Assembly: GCA_016931055.1 (NCBI GenBank)
Contig: JAFGFL010000055.1
Coordinates: forward strand, 69,773-102,656
Reading direction: 5' to 3'
Origin: Candidatus Omnitrophota bacterium
GTDB taxonomy: Bacteria > Omnitrophota > Gorgyraeia > Zapsychrales > Zapsychraceae
Length of the DNA: 32,884 bases
The notes beneath the pieces were generated by a model that saw only the letters and a program-made list of their open reading frames with translations, searched no databases and was not told where the DNA came from. A program made the position numbers and the translations under genes. Shown here piece after piece: positions 9,856-19,034 of the stretch (positions within the stretch are counted from its first letter, which is position 1; each line of letters begins with the position of its first letter).

Positions 9856-12381
9856 CTAATTGCAAATATATATATTTGGAATAAAATCACAACTGCCACT
9901 GCAGCATTCAGCGCAGGAGGAATTAGTGGATTGACCCGTGCCTTTACAACATTTATTATCAGCGCCACATACAAATTGCGGCTGGCAACAAGGAATCACA
10001 GTACAATCATCCCCAAATTCACCGCAATTAGATTTACATTCATAGGAATTCGGCCCCGTGCTATTACATGTCTCATTAAACGAACAAGCTACAGGAGTGT
10101 GGATACATTGATCATTCATTTCATCACAGCTATCGATGGTACATCCATTACCGTCGCTACAATCGAGAGCAGGATGGGGAATTTGGCAAACCCCTGCACT
10201 GCAATTATCCACCGTGCAGAATTTGCCATCATTGCATAATGGCCCAGTTCCGCATTTTCCCGTATTCTCATCACAAGTGCGAATCAGACATGGATCTCCT
10301 GGAACCGGACAGAGACCAGCGTTAGGAATATGGGTGCAGCCATCCGGGAACTTAGGCTTAGGGGCAGGCTTATCCCCGTAACAACCGCAGGAAAGACAAC
10401 TCCCCATGAATGTGCAGATAGGATCACAAGGGCCACTATAATCACGGACACAACCCGTTGGACCGGGCTTCATGTTTGGATCTTCGGCGCAATAATCACC
10501 TTGCGGAGGACCAAGTGTACAAGAATATGTATCCACGCATTCATCATCATGACCATTATAAACACAGCCAGTATTGATATCGCAATAATCGTCGCCTACG
10601 TTCCAAGGGTATGTCACTCCTGTATCAGGATGTGTGTATTGATTACCCGCGAAATCAGCTCCGGTACACGTTTTATTATCTCGAACTTGGCAATACTCAT
10701 GGTCAGGCTGATGCTGGCAATCTGCCGTAACATGGCACCAATCTATTGTACAAGCAATGCTTTCAGGATCGCAATCTGGTGGCACACAACCCATTCCGGC
10801 TTTACACCTCGCATCAAGAGGCAGGTTAAAACAACCACTATCTGGACTCCAATAATCATCCTCCTCCGGGAGTGCTGGATCATACTTGGGATCCTGTTTC
10901 AATGGGTCACACTGGTCATAAGTGCACATGACCGAATCATTACAATCCTCATCGAAAGCAAGGTATATACAGCCTGTAAGATTATTACCTGCCTGCACTC
11001 TTTTACATTCATGTGTCGGGCTATTTGGAAATCTACAATCCGTGTTCTTTCCATCAGGCACCCAACATTTCTGCGGATACTCATTAAACCTAACAAGCGA
11101 ATTCCAGCACGTCGGCACGCAGTAGTCCTGGCCTCTTGTACACGTTAAATCGAGCTGACATTCTGTATCACGGGGATGAAACACGCAACCGGTAGTATAA
11201 ACGCCCTCATGTCCAATATCGTAACCGGACCAAGTATTTCCATTGGGTTCACACCAATCCTCGCCTACTGCGACACCATAAATTTCAACTTCGCCTCCTT
11301 CGGCTTCAGACTTCCAAAGTTCCCCTCCCTTCCAGATTATTCTTTCATCAGGAGCCCCCTGCCTTTCATCAACTTCAGCCCCCGAACAACTGAGGCCATC
11401 ATCACAATAAGAGTGGTTAGGCTGATACACGCATCCATATTTTTCGTGTCTGGAAGGCACACATATATCGACCGTACAATAAATATGATCATCACAGCCA
11501 AAAACAAGGCAGTTATCGTATACATAATTAGGGTCACCTTCCATCACTCCATTGCGGCATAATCTTGCTTCCGGATGGCAAACCGCCCAACATTCTTCTA
11601 GATTATCCAGATAATATACCCGGCTTTCCCCATGCTTTAAAGGAGTGTTTCCTGCAGGATCCAGGCAACCAAGGCAGTTCGCATTCTCGTCACAGCTTGT
11701 CGCTGTATATGATCCGCTTAAAACGCCGTTACTGCATACTCTCGTCTCAGGCTCGCACGGATTCCCGCAGACAGGTGCCGCCTCCTTATAAAATACCTTG
11801 CTGCCGCCATGCGGGATGGTAATCCCGGAAACCACGCAGTTAGCCGGTCCGGAAACTGTGCAACTTGTCGCCTTATATGATCCGCTTAACATCCCGTTAT
11901 TGCAGCAGCGTTCCTCCGATTCGCATTCCATCCCATAAGGCGGGGATGCAAGAAGATAATACGTCGCGCACTCCCCATGAGCAAGAGCCCCGCAATTAGC
12001 ACAAACCAGCCCCCCTGGCTGGCAGGCCCCTGCGACACACGTCTCGACTCCATTGCAGGCTACTCCGTCATTACATTCCGCGTCTGTCGAACAAAGTCCG
12101 CAATCGGCGGCACAGTTCGCAATCGACTCGCCGGGCTCGCAACAATCATTACCGCAAACAGCCGGGCAGCCTTCCGGGTCAAAACACGTCTGTAAAGCCA
12201 CGCATTTGGTGCCGACCATGGCTGTATTCATCGTATCTTGGATTTTCTGCGTGAGAATGCCAGATGGGCCTAAAGCCACGACCAAAAGAGTGACGACTCC
12301 AACCAGGACAAGGATATACTCCGTCATGTTTTGGCCGGATAAAGGATTATTTGTTCTGAAGTTTCTTAGCCGTTTGAGCAT
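9856..12381 (-). CDS. Large (841 aa) Cys-rich protein with pilin-like (class III/Flp/TadE-like) N-terminus
   Basis: MLKRLRNFRTNNPLSGQNMTEYILVLVGVVTLLVVALGPSG, then nearly 100 Cys (by-eye count), including repeats of the type CNDGKFCTVDNCSAGVCQ and CSDGNGCTIDSCDEMNDQCIHTPVAC. Confidence 0.8.
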   Translation of the reverse strand: MLKRLRNFRTNNPLSGQNMTEYILVLVGVVTLLVVALGPSGILTQKIQDTMNTAMVGTKCVALQTCFDPEGCPAVCGNDCCEPGESIANCAADCGLCSTDAECNDGVACNGVETCVAGACQPGGLVCANCGALAHGECATYYLLASPPYGMECESEERCCNNGMLSGSYKATSCTVSGPANCVVSGITIPHGGSKVFYKEAAPVCGNPCEPETRVCSNGVLSGSYTATSCDENANCLGCLDPAGNTPLKHGESRVYYLDNLEECWAVCHPEARLCRNGVMEGDPNYVYDNCLVFGCDDHIYCTVDICVPSRHEKYGCVYQPNHSYCDDGLSCSGAEVDERQGAPDERIIWKGGELWKSEAEGGEVEIYGVAVGEDWCEPNGNTWSGYDIGHEGVYTTGCVFHPRDTECQLDLTCTRGQDYCVPTCWNSLVRFNEYPQKCWVPDGKNTDCRFPNSPTHECKRVQAGNNLTGCIYLAFDEDCNDSVMCTYDQCDPLKQDPKYDPALPEEDDYWSPDSGCFNLPLDARCKAGMGCVPPDCDPESIACTIDWCHVTADCQHQPDHEYCQVRDNKTCTGADFAGNQYTHPDTGVTYPWNVGDDYCDINTGCVYNGHDDECVDTYSCTLGPPQGDYCAEDPNMKPGPTGCVRDYSGPCDPICTFMGSCLSCGCYGDKPAPKPKFPDGCTHIPNAGLCPVPGDPCLIRTCDENTGKCGTGPLCNDGKFCTVDNCSAGVCQIPHPALDCSDGNGCTIDSCDEMNDQCIHTPVACSFNETCNSTGPNSYECKSNCGEFGDDCTVIPCCQPQFVCGADNKCCKGTGQSTNSSCAECCSGSCDFIPNIYICN

Positions 12382-12382
12382 A

Positions 12383-12431
12383 ATAAAAAACCGGATTACC
12401 GTATAAAATTAAAAACATCATGGTAACCCGG
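12383..12431 (-). terminator. Intrinsic terminator overlapping the 3' strand of riboswitch 2
   Basis: Minus strand CCGGGTTACC (12422-12431) pairs with GGTAATCCGG (12391-12400, one G-U), followed by TTTTTTAT directly before the ATG at 12381. Confidence 0.75.
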
Positions 12432-12508
12432 CTGTCAAAATTCTTAGTGAACCATTGACCCGTGGCTTTGCGTCCCTGCCTCACGACAGGTTTGCCTTTT
12501 TCACTATA
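12422..12508 (-). ncRNA. GEMM-I cyclic-dinucleotide riboswitch aptamer 2
   Basis: Minus strand GTGAAAAAGGCAAACCTGTCGTGAGGCAGGGACGCAAAGCCACGGGTCAATGGTTCACTAAGAATTTTGACAGCCGGGTTACC. Near-consensus GEMM-I: GGCAAACC, P1b CCTGTC-GTGA-GGCAGG, GACGCAAAGCC, P2 GGTCAA...TTGACAGCC, GGGTTACC. Confidence 0.92.
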
Positions 12509-12516
12509 AGTATGCC

Positions 12517-12544
12517 ATATTAAGTCAGAAAACTCCATTCAAAA
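12517..12544 (-). promoter_or_regulatory. Weak candidate promoter for riboswitch 2
   Basis: Minus strand TTTTGA - 16 nt - TAATAT; would start transcription at about 12510, at the 5' edge of the aptamer. Confidence 0.35.
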
Positions 12545-14455: not shown

Positions 14456-14920
14456 TTATTTTAGGTTTGATGAATCATCGTTGTACCATCGCTGGATCGC
14501 TCTCTTAATCTCGCTTTCCGCCGCAATAAAAGGAACCAGGCGGCAGTTCGTCACGCGCTGTAACTCTGCTTTGGCGGCTTCATCCAAAGGATTGGCCATG
14601 ACAATGCTCAAAATATCATTCACCCGGTCAAGCGGCACCACGCGGTGCTTGCGCGCGATTTCCCCGGGCACAAGCTGAATGATATTCTGGTCGATCTCGT
14701 AACGGTCAATGGCGATGTAAGGGATGTGGCATTGAATAACGAGAGCTGCGACGACATCATGTTCGTTGGCATATCCAAGACTGGTCAAGATCTCTCCAAA
14801 GAAACGGCCCTGTTCTTCCTGGATGGACATGGCGTGCTTTAATTGGTTTTGGTCAATAATATTGCGCTCAAGCAATATCTTCCCTAAAAATTGTTTGTTT
14901 GAAGAAGTTTTTTTCCCCAT
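14456..14920 (-). CDS. Stand-alone MshEN (T2SSE_N) domain protein
   Basis: FLGKILLERNIIDQNQLKHAMSIQEEQGRFFGEILTSLGYANEHDVVAALVIQCHIPYIAIDRYEI...VPLDRVNDILSIVMANPLDEAA; no ATPase domain. Confidence 0.85.
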   Translation of the reverse strand: MGKKTSSNKQFLGKILLERNIIDQNQLKHAMSIQEEQGRFFGEILTSLGYANEHDVVAALVIQCHIPYIAIDRYEIDQNIIQLVPGEIARKHRVVPLDRVNDILSIVMANPLDEAAKAELQRVTNCRLVPFIAAESEIKRAIQRWYNDDSSNLK

Positions 14921-15082
14921 CGAAACAACTCTTTACCTTAAAGCATCCGTTTTTCATTTATGAGAGATCAGCCGGTCCTTGACCTTTACGTTTTACTTGG
15001 TTTATTCTAACAGTCAATAAGCCGTTTGAAAATAAGTAAATAAAAGATTCGTGAAAACAGATTAATCGGGATATGTCTCTGA

Positions 15083-16789
15083 TCAATCAAGGGTGGCAAT
15101 CCTCAAAACTTCCTCCAGAGAGGTTAATCCTGAGGCGCACTTGGTCATGCCGTCATCCCATAACGTTACCATCCCTTTTTCCCGCCGCGCATACTCTTTA
15201 ATGTCATCTGACGATTTCCCTCCGATCAACATGTCCCTTATGGTGTCATCCACTTCCAAAAGTTCCGTTAAGCCCAAGCGCCCCAGATATCCCGTTTGGC
15301 TGCAGGCATCACACCCTTTTCCGCTGTAGAACGTTATTCCGTCGGGAAGCCTGCCTTTTAACCGTTGGCGCATCTCATCGGGGATCGTTAACTTTGCTTT
15401 ACATTTTGTGCATATTTTCCGGCATAGCCTCTGCGCGCTGACTAAAACCAGGCTTGAGGCGACCAAAAACGGCTCGACATTCATATCCACCAGGCGCGTC
15501 AAAGTCCCCGCGGCATCATTGGTATGAAGGGTCGAGAACACCAATTGGCCGGTTAAAGAGGCTTTAATAGCGATATCAGCCGTTTCATTATCGCGGATCT
15601 CCCCCACCATGACAATATCAGGGCTCTGACGCAAGATCGCCCTTAACCCTTCCGCAAATGTCAAGCCGATCTCCGGCCTGGCCTGGATCTGCGTCAGCCC
15701 TTCAATCAGGTATTCGACAGGATCCTCAACCGTAATAATATTTCTCTCCACCGTGTTCAGTTCGCTGATGATCGAATACAAGGTGGTGGATTTCCCGCTT
15801 CCGGTCGGCCCGGTGACCAAGATCATCCCAAACGGCTTCCTGATTGCCTCTTTAAGGATTTTCATGGCCCTCTCCTCAAAGCCAAGCCCGTCAAGGCCAA
15901 CGGCAAGCTTGGCCTTGTCCAGGACGCGCATCACAATTTTCTGCCCGAATGTCGTCGGCAGGATCGAAACGCGGAAATCGACTTCTTGATTATTCATTTT
16001 CAGCTTGAACCTTCCGTCTTGAGGGACCTGATTGGTCGTAATGTCCAAGCGGGACATGATCTTGATGCGGACGACAACCGCATTCTGGTTTTCCTTAGGG
16101 ATATTGAGAATATCGTGCAAAACGCCGTCAATGCGGTAGCGGACGCGCATGCCGTCGATTTCGGGTTCGATGTGAATATCCGAGGCCCGGCGACGCAAGG
16201 CCTCTTTGATCACCAGGTTGATCATGCGGATGATCGGCGCTTTCTCGCTCTCATCCACCGATTCGTCATCGCTTTCCCGCTGCTCGTGATCGGCCACAAT
16301 TTCGAAATCCTCGATCTGGATATCCTTGGTGATCTCATTGACGCTCATTTCCGTCTTGATGCCGTAATAAGCGTTGATCGCCTTGACGATCTCGGAATTC
16401 GTGCTCATGACCACATCAATCTCTTTGCCTGTCAGGTTTTTCAGGTCGTCCATCAAAAAGATATTGAACGGATCGGATAAGGCGATCGTCAGGGTGTAGT
16501 CCAGTTCCGAAATGGGGATAATGTTATATTGACGGGCCGTGCGTTCAGGGATGGCCGATTGAAGCGCGGGATCAATTTTATATTTGCTCAGATTAATAAA
16601 GGGGATGTTTAATTCGCGCACTAAAACAGCCATAAGGTCTTGTTCTTTGATATGGCCGGTCTCAATGAGCGCTTTATCAAGGCCGATTTTTTTCTTCTTT
16701 TGCAGAGCGATGGCCTCGTTGACTTCTTTTTTCGTGAGTTTTTGCGCATCGATCAGTGTCTTTAGAATTTTGTCTTTTATCGTTGCCAC
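15083..16789 (-). CDS. pilB: Type IV pilus assembly ATPase PilB/GspE family (copy 1)
   Basis: MshEN-like N-domain; Walker A GPTGSGKSTTLYS; VEDPVEY; RQSPDIVMVGEIRDNETADIA; CxxC zinc motif CTKCKAKL...CDACSQTGYLGRLGLTELL. Confidence 0.94.
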   Translation of the reverse strand: MATIKDKILKTLIDAQKLTKKEVNEAIALQKKKKIGLDKALIETGHIKEQDLMAVLVRELNIPFINLSKYKIDPALQSAIPERTARQYNIIPISELDYTLTIALSDPFNIFLMDDLKNLTGKEIDVVMSTNSEIVKAINAYYGIKTEMSVNEITKDIQIEDFEIVADHEQRESDDESVDESEKAPIIRMINLVIKEALRRRASDIHIEPEIDGMRVRYRIDGVLHDILNIPKENQNAVVVRIKIMSRLDITTNQVPQDGRFKLKMNNQEVDFRVSILPTTFGQKIVMRVLDKAKLAVGLDGLGFEERAMKILKEAIRKPFGMILVTGPTGSGKSTTLYSIISELNTVERNIITVEDPVEYLIEGLTQIQARPEIGLTFAEGLRAILRQSPDIVMVGEIRDNETADIAIKASLTGQLVFSTLHTNDAAGTLTRLVDMNVEPFLVASSLVLVSAQRLCRKICTKCKAKLTIPDEMRQRLKGRLPDGITFYSGKGCDACSQTGYLGRLGLTELLEVDDTIRDMLIGGKSSDDIKEYARREKGMVTLWDDGMTKCASGLTSLEEVLRIATLD

Positions 16790-16824
16790 TGCGGACCCTC
16801 TTTATGGATACCGGCTCCTCCCGG

Positions 16825-18582
16825 TCAGATTTCATCCTGCGCCGTGACCCGCGTCACTTCCTCGAGCGTCGTTAAACCTTCCACGGCTTTTGCGATTCCG
16901 TCTTCGCGCATGGTCTGCATCCCATCGGCGCGAGCGGTTTCTTTTAATTTGACTTCCCCTGCCCTCGACAGGACCAGCTCGCGGATTTTTGGCGTGAAAA
17001 TAAGGATTTCCGTGATGCCGACGCGCCCTTTGTATCCCGTTTGGAAACACCGCTTGCATCCTTTTCCCCGGAATAACTCGAACTTTTTCGTGTCCTTTGG
17101 AAACACCTTCTTTAAGTTAAACTTATCAACAATCGTTGAAGTAGCCTCATAAGGCTCCTTGCAATACGTGCAGATTCTCCTCAGAAGCCGCTGGGCCACG
17201 ACCGCCAGAACGGAAGAACAAATCAAGAAAGGCTCTACCCCCATGTTCATCATACGGATGACCGACCCTGCCGCTGTCGTGGTATGCAAAGAACTTAAAA
17301 CAAGGTGTCCGGTCAGAGCGGCCTTGACGGCGATATCAAGGGTCTCGGAGTCCCGGATCTCTCCGATCATGATAATGTCAGGGTCTTGTCGGAGAATGGA
17401 CCGCAAACTTACCGGGAACGTTAATCCCATGGCAGGCTTGATATTGACCTGGCTCACCCCCTTCATCTGAAACTCAACAGGGTCCTCAACCGTAACAATA
17501 TTCTTCTCGGGCGAATCCACGTACTTGAGGATGGAGTAGAGCGTGGTCGTTTTCCCGCTTCCTGTCGGGCCGCAAGCCAAAATCATGCCGTGGGGTTGAA
17601 TAGCGCACTCCTTGAGCCTCTCCAGAGATTTTGCCTCGAACCCTAACCGATCGATATTCAAGAACGAGGCATCCTGGTCCAAAATCCTTAAGACAACTTT
17701 TTCGCCAAAGGCCGTCGGCAAAACATTGACGCGGAAGTCCACCGCGTGCTCTCCGGAAATAATGGTCTTAAATCTTCCGTCTTGAGGCAACCGGTGTTCC
17801 GAAATATCAAGGTTTGAAATAACTTTGATCCTGGAAACAATAGGGTAATGAAGGACTTTGGTCATGCGGTCGATCTCACGGACAATCCCGTCAATACGGT
17901 AACGGATACGCATCGTTTTTTCCAAAGGTTCAATAAAAACGTCACTTGCCCGCGAAACGACGGCCTGTTGAATGATCGTGTCCGTCAACTTGATAATGGG
18001 CGCTTCGTCGGTCAAATCTTCGACCGTCGCCTTTTCCCCATCCTCCTGCGCGTCTTTGATGAGTTCGAACTCTCCGGTATCCTGGATATCTTTGATGATC
18101 TCATCAAAGGTTTCGGTGGGATCTTTGACCTCTTCCTGTTTCTTTTCCTCCTCAGGATAATATCTCTCGATCGTTCTGGTGATATCAGCGGGCAAGCCGA
18201 TAACGGGGTTGATCTTATATCCCGTTAAAACCTTGACATTGTCGATGATGAAAATATTAAGAGGGTCCGCCATCGCCAAAGTCAGGTGATCGCCCATTAA
18301 TGACACGGGCATAATCTGGTATCTGCTGGCGGTCTCTTTAGGGATGATTTTCACGATTTCAGGATCGACTTTCAGGCGGTCAATATTGATGGGCGGGAGG
18401 CCCAATCCTTCACTGAGGATCTGAGCCAAGGTCTTCTCGTCTATAAGATCAAGCTTGACAAGAATTTTGCTGAGTTCACCACCAAATTTTTTCTGCTCTT
18501 GAAGGGCGCGTTCAAAATCTTGAGACGAAATATGTTTGTCCCGGATCAATATTTCCTGAAGACGGTCTTTTAACGATGCCAT
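16825..18582 (-). CDS. pilB: Type IV pilus assembly ATPase PilB/GspE family (copy 2)
   Basis: MshEN-like N-domain; GPTGSGKTTTLYS; VEDPVEFQMKGVSQVNIKPAMGLTF; RQDPDIIMIGEIRDSETLDIA; CTYCKEPY...CKRCFQTGYKGRVGITEIL. Confidence 0.94.
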   Translation of the reverse strand: MASLKDRLQEILIRDKHISSQDFERALQEQKKFGGELSKILVKLDLIDEKTLAQILSEGLGLPPINIDRLKVDPEIVKIIPKETASRYQIMPVSLMGDHLTLAMADPLNIFIIDNVKVLTGYKINPVIGLPADITRTIERYYPEEEKKQEEVKDPTETFDEIIKDIQDTGEFELIKDAQEDGEKATVEDLTDEAPIIKLTDTIIQQAVVSRASDVFIEPLEKTMRIRYRIDGIVREIDRMTKVLHYPIVSRIKVISNLDISEHRLPQDGRFKTIISGEHAVDFRVNVLPTAFGEKVVLRILDQDASFLNIDRLGFEAKSLERLKECAIQPHGMILACGPTGSGKTTTLYSILKYVDSPEKNIVTVEDPVEFQMKGVSQVNIKPAMGLTFPVSLRSILRQDPDIIMIGEIRDSETLDIAVKAALTGHLVLSSLHTTTAAGSVIRMMNMGVEPFLICSSVLAVVAQRLLRRICTYCKEPYEATSTIVDKFNLKKVFPKDTKKFELFRGKGCKRCFQTGYKGRVGITEILIFTPKIRELVLSRAGEVKLKETARADGMQTMREDGIAKAVEGLTTLEEVTRVTAQDEI

Positions 18583-19034
18583 TATTGCGCCCTATAATAT
18601 TTATCGATCGATTGCTTGATATCGCTCGCCGTGCTGACAAAAACCTGAACGCTGCAGCCGGTTATAAGTTCAACGTCCTCCAAAGCCTGGAGATTCAGCG
18701 GATTGGACATGGCCACGGTCAGGCTCTTCCCGATCTTATCTATAGGCACAAGGCAAAATTGCCGGCAGATATTTTCAGGCACTGACCGCACAACCTCCCC
18801 GTCAATCTCGTAACTGGAAAGGGGCAGATAAGGAAATCCGTACTGGCAGGTCAGCGCCTGGGCAATGTCTTTTTCAGTCGCGAATTTCAAATCAACCAGC
18901 ACTTCCCCCAGCAATAACTCAGGATTCTTCTTTTTGTGTTGTATCGCGATATCGAGCTGTTCGTGGTTGATGACCCCGCGCTCCACAAGAACCTCGCCAA
19001 GATGTTTATTTGTCGCTCTCTTAAAATCTTTCAT
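18582..19034 (-). CDS. Stand-alone MshEN (T2SSE_N) domain protein
   Basis: HLGEVLVERGVINHEQLDIAIQHKKKNPELLLGEVLVDLKFATEKDIAQAL...VPIDKIGKSLTVAMSNPLNLQALEDVELITGC; stop overlaps the downstream pilB start (TAATG). Confidence 0.87.
   Translation of the reverse strand: MKDFKRATNKHLGEVLVERGVINHEQLDIAIQHKKKNPELLLGEVLVDLKFATEKDIAQALTCQYGFPYLPLSSYEIDGEVVRSVPENICRQFCLVPIDKIGKSLTVAMSNPLNLQALEDVELITGCSVQVFVSTASDIKQSIDKYYRAQ

Follow-up and report, generated by a model that had tools for sequence, protein, structure and literature searches.

The closest described counterpart of the RNA reported here is the pilM switch of Geobacter metallireducens, in which aptamer and terminator are mutually exclusive, the terminator captures the ligand-pairing C75 and the switch is ON (PMC9262584). 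In C. difficile, class I c-di-GMP riboswitches are uniformly OFF and class II riboswitches ON, and the class II ON riboswitch Cdi-2-4 precedes the pilin gene pilA1 (PMC6366702).

We analysed 32,884 nucleotides of contig JAFGFL010000055.1 (hereafter the window) from an uncultured Omnitrophota bacterium represented by a 2.2-Mb metagenome bin. Two GEMM-I elements, which we call GEMM-a and GEMM-b, flank a gene for a cysteine-rich pilin-like protein. Window features are given on the minus strand, read 5' to 3'.

Results

GEMM-a is a full-length c-di-GMP-I (GEMM-I) aptamer at 12505-12418(-). A sequence-only reading of this stretch had described a near-consensus GEMM-I aptamer on the minus strand and proposed an Infernal search as a check; the search returned significant matches to RF03167 (cmscan, 73.3 bits, E 9e-16, 12505-12418(-)) and to RF01051 (81.1 bits, gathering cut-off 35). 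We assigned ligand-contact residues by Vc2 numbering, in which G20, A47 and C92 are the named contacts (PMC4744006), and counted window positions along the sequence. All three contacts are canonical (12496, 12469 and 12423, respectively), as is the interhelical pair between C44 (12472) and G83 (12432); P1 is short, with about 3 pairs. Riboswitches for cGAMP (GEMM-Ib) carry an A at position 20. GEMM-a has a G there, as the sequence-only reading had suggested from an alignment that it did not consider secure. On this residue we rejected the cGAMP subclass, and we predict c-di-GMP, favoured over cGAMP, as the ligand of GEMM-a.

By E-value, the best Rfam label for the window aptamers is RF03167 (c-di-GMP-I-GGC), which could point to another ligand for GEMM-a, either cGAMP or that of the GGC variant. 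We regard this as very improbable. Position 20 is not the A of cGAMP types, RF01051 outscores RF03167 in bits, and the cmscan alignment places a G at position 47 of the RF03167 consensus where both GEMM-a and GEMM-b have an A, although both pass the model score. We read the 'GGC' in the model name as positions 20, 47 and 92, and with an A at residue 47 the label was rejected at face value. Because of A47, and because RF01051 gives GEMM-a more bits, we treated both aptamers as ordinary c-di-GMP-I RNAs.

Upstream of GEMM-a is a probable extended -10 promoter element, ATATGGCATACT (12520-12509), identified by its match to the consensus; the promoter-like ATATGGCATACTT is identical in three genomes (G000, G001 and G003). 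The predicted transcription start lies near 12505-12500, so that the RNA would begin at the aptamer. At the other end, the aptamer 3' strand, GCCGGGTTACC (12432-12422), is shared with an intrinsic terminator hairpin (12432-12390, -16.5 kcal/mol), of which it forms the 5' arm. Within this hairpin, CCGGGTTACC (12431-12422) pairs with GGTAATCCGG (12400-12391), capturing the ligand-pairing C92, and the T-tract TTTTTTATT (12390-12382) follows and ends at the ATG (12381-12379) of an 841-amino-acid cysteine-rich protein. None of 200 shuffles was as stable as the terminator fold (z = -3.3), and 1 of 5,000 dinucleotide shuffles produced a 3' arm with equal complementarity to the aptamer strand. Among the 57 T6 runs in the window, only that of GEMM-a is preceded by such an arm. 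For the full RNA, the terminator fold reached -38.4 kcal/mol, compared with -30.0 kcal/mol when the aptamer helices were enforced, a difference that ligand binding could plausibly bridge. On these predicted pairings the two folds are mutually exclusive.

This arrangement, in which the aptamer 3' strand including the ligand-pairing C doubles as the terminator 5' arm and a T-tract follows, is that of the pilM switch, another GEMM-I RNA of ON layout with pilus genes downstream (PMC9262584). The pilM RNA senses cGAMP (PMC9262584), whereas GEMM-a has a G at position 20 and is predicted to bind c-di-GMP; its target also differs, being an Omnitrophota cysteine-rich pilin-like gene whose ATG abuts the T-tract. 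We conclude that 12505-12382(-) is very likely a c-di-GMP-I riboswitch that acts as a pilM-type transcriptional ON switch. Without ligand, the newly made GGTAATCCGG arm would capture the aptamer 3' strand, C92 included, and transcription would end just before the ATG. If c-di-GMP were bound before this arm was made, no terminator would form and the cysteine-rich pilin gene would be transcribed. The gap between the aptamer and the capturing arm is about 20 nt long, which makes a kinetic choice of fold likely. The genome has 13 GGDEF matches. These results confirm what the sequence-only reading had observed, namely an aptamer strand shared with the terminator and a T-tract running into the ATG of the cysteine-rich gene, and they support its interpretation of exclusive folds with ON logic, to which the pilM-like architecture and the retention of the overlap in two congeners both lend weight.

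In these congeners, G003 (L070 1977-1810(-)) and G001 (L069 439-597(+)), a homologous pilin gene again follows the ATATGGCATACTT promoter-like element, a GEMM aptamer and a terminator that overlaps this aptamer. The terminator 5' arm CCGGGTTACC, fixed by the aptamer, is invariant across the three species, whereas the 3' arm has drifted and differs at 4 of 10 positions. By hand count, standard pairing is kept in 28 of 30 pair cells, and the duplex energies in the two congeners are -13.5 and -19.2. The changes in the 3' arm are one-sided, with no double compensatory changes among the three species; they thus support the pairing yet provide no compensatory covariation.

Carriage of the element is limited to these three species. 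In a fourth congener, G004 (L071), a homologous pilin gene is present at the locus with no GEMM detected, and no GEMM was found near Cys-rich or Flp-like pilin homologues among the further homologues examined outside the genus. This patchiness, together with inserts of about 76-83 nt that interrupt the aptamer in G001 and G003, could indicate that GEMM-a has decayed to a leftover aptamer and a constitutive terminator that no longer switches. The near-consensus aptamer with every contact intact, and the promoter element and overlap preserved in three species, make decay the least probable of the alternatives that we considered.

We also examined the translation start. As the sequence-only reading had stated, the 841-amino-acid gene is preceded by no Shine-Dalgarno sequence (-3.1 kcal/mol). 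Its suggestion that initiation may therefore be unusual did not hold up: 8 of 28 other window open reading frames, with starts set mechanically, have a Shine-Dalgarno weaker than -1 kcal/mol, and both congener homologues (G001 and G003) have a good one. A special translation start was rejected on these grounds. A leaderless start from a promoter-like site at 12407-12380 was also rejected, as its start point would sit inside the gene.

The same RNA might instead act partly or mainly on translation, its formed stem also barring ribosomes from transcripts that escape termination. The stem (12432-12391) ends only 9 nt from the ATG at 12381, the gene lacks a Shine-Dalgarno sequence, and a mixture of transcriptional and translational control has been reported for Bc1 (PMC11218506). 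In the congeners, however, the gene starts about 45 to 110 nt past the terminator with a Shine-Dalgarno of its own, so that the conserved part is the terminator and not its proximity to the ATG. We therefore consider a translational role unlikely, if less so than decay or a different ligand, and retain transcriptional control as the preferred reading.

The gene downstream of GEMM-a (12381-9856) encodes 841 amino acids, 98 of them cysteines, and agrees with the pilin-like, cysteine-rich target that had been proposed. Its N-terminus (MLKR...GQNMTEY) has homologous counterparts in congeners and resembles Flp or class III pilins over MLKR...GQNMTEYILVLVGV; the G003 homologue shows a weak Class_IIIsignal match. 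The protein also has five stretches of Dicty_CTDC repeats, with a whole-protein score of 25.6, just below the Pfam cut-off of 27. The homologues are 729 (G001) and 126 (G003) amino acids long, and a contig search with the 841-amino-acid protein as the query returned no match. We infer that the protein is a fibre or tip subunit, or an adhesin. Its gene is part of a type IV pilus locus that also encodes PilB-like ATPases, a PilC-like protein, PilM, PilN, PilO and a secretin. MshEN is a known c-di-GMP-binding domain. Four consecutive MshEN-domain proteins, two of them PilB-like ATPases, are encoded at 14456-19034(-), with an LG-type motif that is only partial. Downstream of the cysteine-rich gene is a pilA-like type IV pilin gene (N_methyl domain match, 9238-8843) with a promoter of its own, TTGACA-18-TATAAT (9415-9386), that matches the consensus at 12 of 12 positions. 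The spacer of this promoter contains a perfect AAGGAGGTG (9401-9393) with no start codon directly after it, and several relatives have comparable GGAGGTG spacers.

The interval between the cysteine-rich gene and pilA holds GEMM-b (9778-9699; RF03167, 61.2 bits, E 2.7e-12), a second c-di-GMP-I aptamer that the sequence-only reading did not include. A promoter-like TTGACG-17-TATACT sequence lies ahead of it (9829-9801), identified by consensus match, and in relatives, too, a TATACT-type element lies upstream of GEMM-b. The predicted terminator (9680-9653) begins 18 nt past the aptamer. We predict that an antiterminator likely forms between GGATGGGACACAAAGC of the aptamer (9756-9737, comprising the P2 3' strand, J2/1 and A47) and TTTGTG..CCTATTCC on the terminator side (9689-9669), with a duplex energy of -13.3 kcal/mol (p 0.007, mononucleotide shuffle, window). 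The region from the GEMM-b terminator to the pilA promoter (9650-9430) is rich in repeats (GGAGCGAGCGTTAGCGAGCG and others).

Since aptamer and terminator are separate in GEMM-b, the terminator is compatible with a ligand-bound aptamer, as in the C. difficile Cd1 OFF riboswitch, which has a separate terminator and an antiterminator that uses an aptamer strand (PMC9262584, PMC6366702). GEMM-b is predicted to have an OFF (Cd1-like) layout in which ligand should cause termination. Unlike Cd1, it precedes a pilA gene with its own promoter, and its predicted antiterminator is built on the P2 3' strand and J2/1. Given that perfect promoter, GEMM-b can control only read-through into pilA.

The terminator lies outside the aptamer in all 17 loci tested, and the antiterminator reached a shuffle p of 0.05 or below in 13 of them. 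Swapping partners between species gave no covariation signal (own pairs -14.15 kcal/mol, swapped pairs -13.88 kcal/mol), as both strands are nearly invariant; support for the antiterminator therefore comes from conserved complementarity, not covariation. A GEMM precedes pilA in nearly all family loci examined that had enough sequence, including L103-L111, L113, L114, L116-L120 and L033. Homologues of the window PilM come mostly from Candidatus Omnitrophota, the closest with 85% identity; most close PilM relatives (named Omnitrophota records) have a GEMM ahead of pilA, and more distant relatives have none.

The genome of the window contains nine RF01051 matches, eight of them above the cut-off, and each of the 55 searched genomes from the order has GEMM-I elements. 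Terminator 5' arms overlap the aptamer 3' end at L017 1501-1626(-), L012 1501-1595(-) and L022 696-839(+), which indicates ON-type layouts elsewhere in the order. Two same-order elements, L027 1501-1593(+) and L028 1501-1587(+), carry an A at the selectivity position, comparable to cGAMP-type riboswitches. Inserts of about 40-85 nt that form two adjacent hairpins between C44 and position 45 occur at the same site in four elements (L069 439-597(+), L069 2937-3063(+), L070 1977-1810(-) and L120 4739-4615(-)). A scripted search for aptamers with inserts used overly strict criteria and undercounted them. A different, multi-hairpin insert within P3 is present at L118 5707-5846(+), L113 1396-1478(+) and L009 1501-1583(+).

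Discussion

Taken together, the predicted layouts suggest that this locus probably carries c-di-GMP switches of opposite sign, ON for the cysteine-rich pilin and OFF for read-through into pilA. At high c-di-GMP, GEMM-a would be open and GEMM-b closed, raising the cysteine-rich pilin and lowering pilA read-through; transcripts of the cysteine-rich gene would likewise end at the closed GEMM-b terminator. At low c-di-GMP the reverse would apply, with GEMM-a closed and GEMM-b open.

Blocking of a terminator by c-di-GMP (predicted for GEMM-a) to turn on a pilin gene has a parallel in Cdi-2-4, which belongs to a different aptamer class (PMC6366702). Opposite signs in C. difficile are divided between classes (PMC6366702), whereas the window pair, placed around one gene, is entirely class I. 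In the literature library searched, we found no report of a class I pair of opposite sign flanking one gene, and no riboswitch paper on Omnitrophota. The type of sensor was already known; its use as two opposed elements around a single pilin gene appears new. This pair and the two-hairpin inserts in the aptamers of relatives are the newer points of our analysis. As a tentative proposal, to which we give somewhat less than even weight, the two flanking switches exchange one pilin for another, the OFF half being family-wide in Omnitrophota and the ON half an addition of the genus.

The occurrence of GEMM-I in all 55 genomes suggests that RNA-based control by c-di-GMP is common in these bacteria. 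With GEMM-a, ON switches of the pilM type would reach into an uncultured phylum, and this RNA would tie c-di-GMP to the choice of pilin in Omnitrophota. If the exchange proposed here is correct, a single signal would replace surface fibres or tips, trading the large cysteine-rich pilin against the major pilin pilA.
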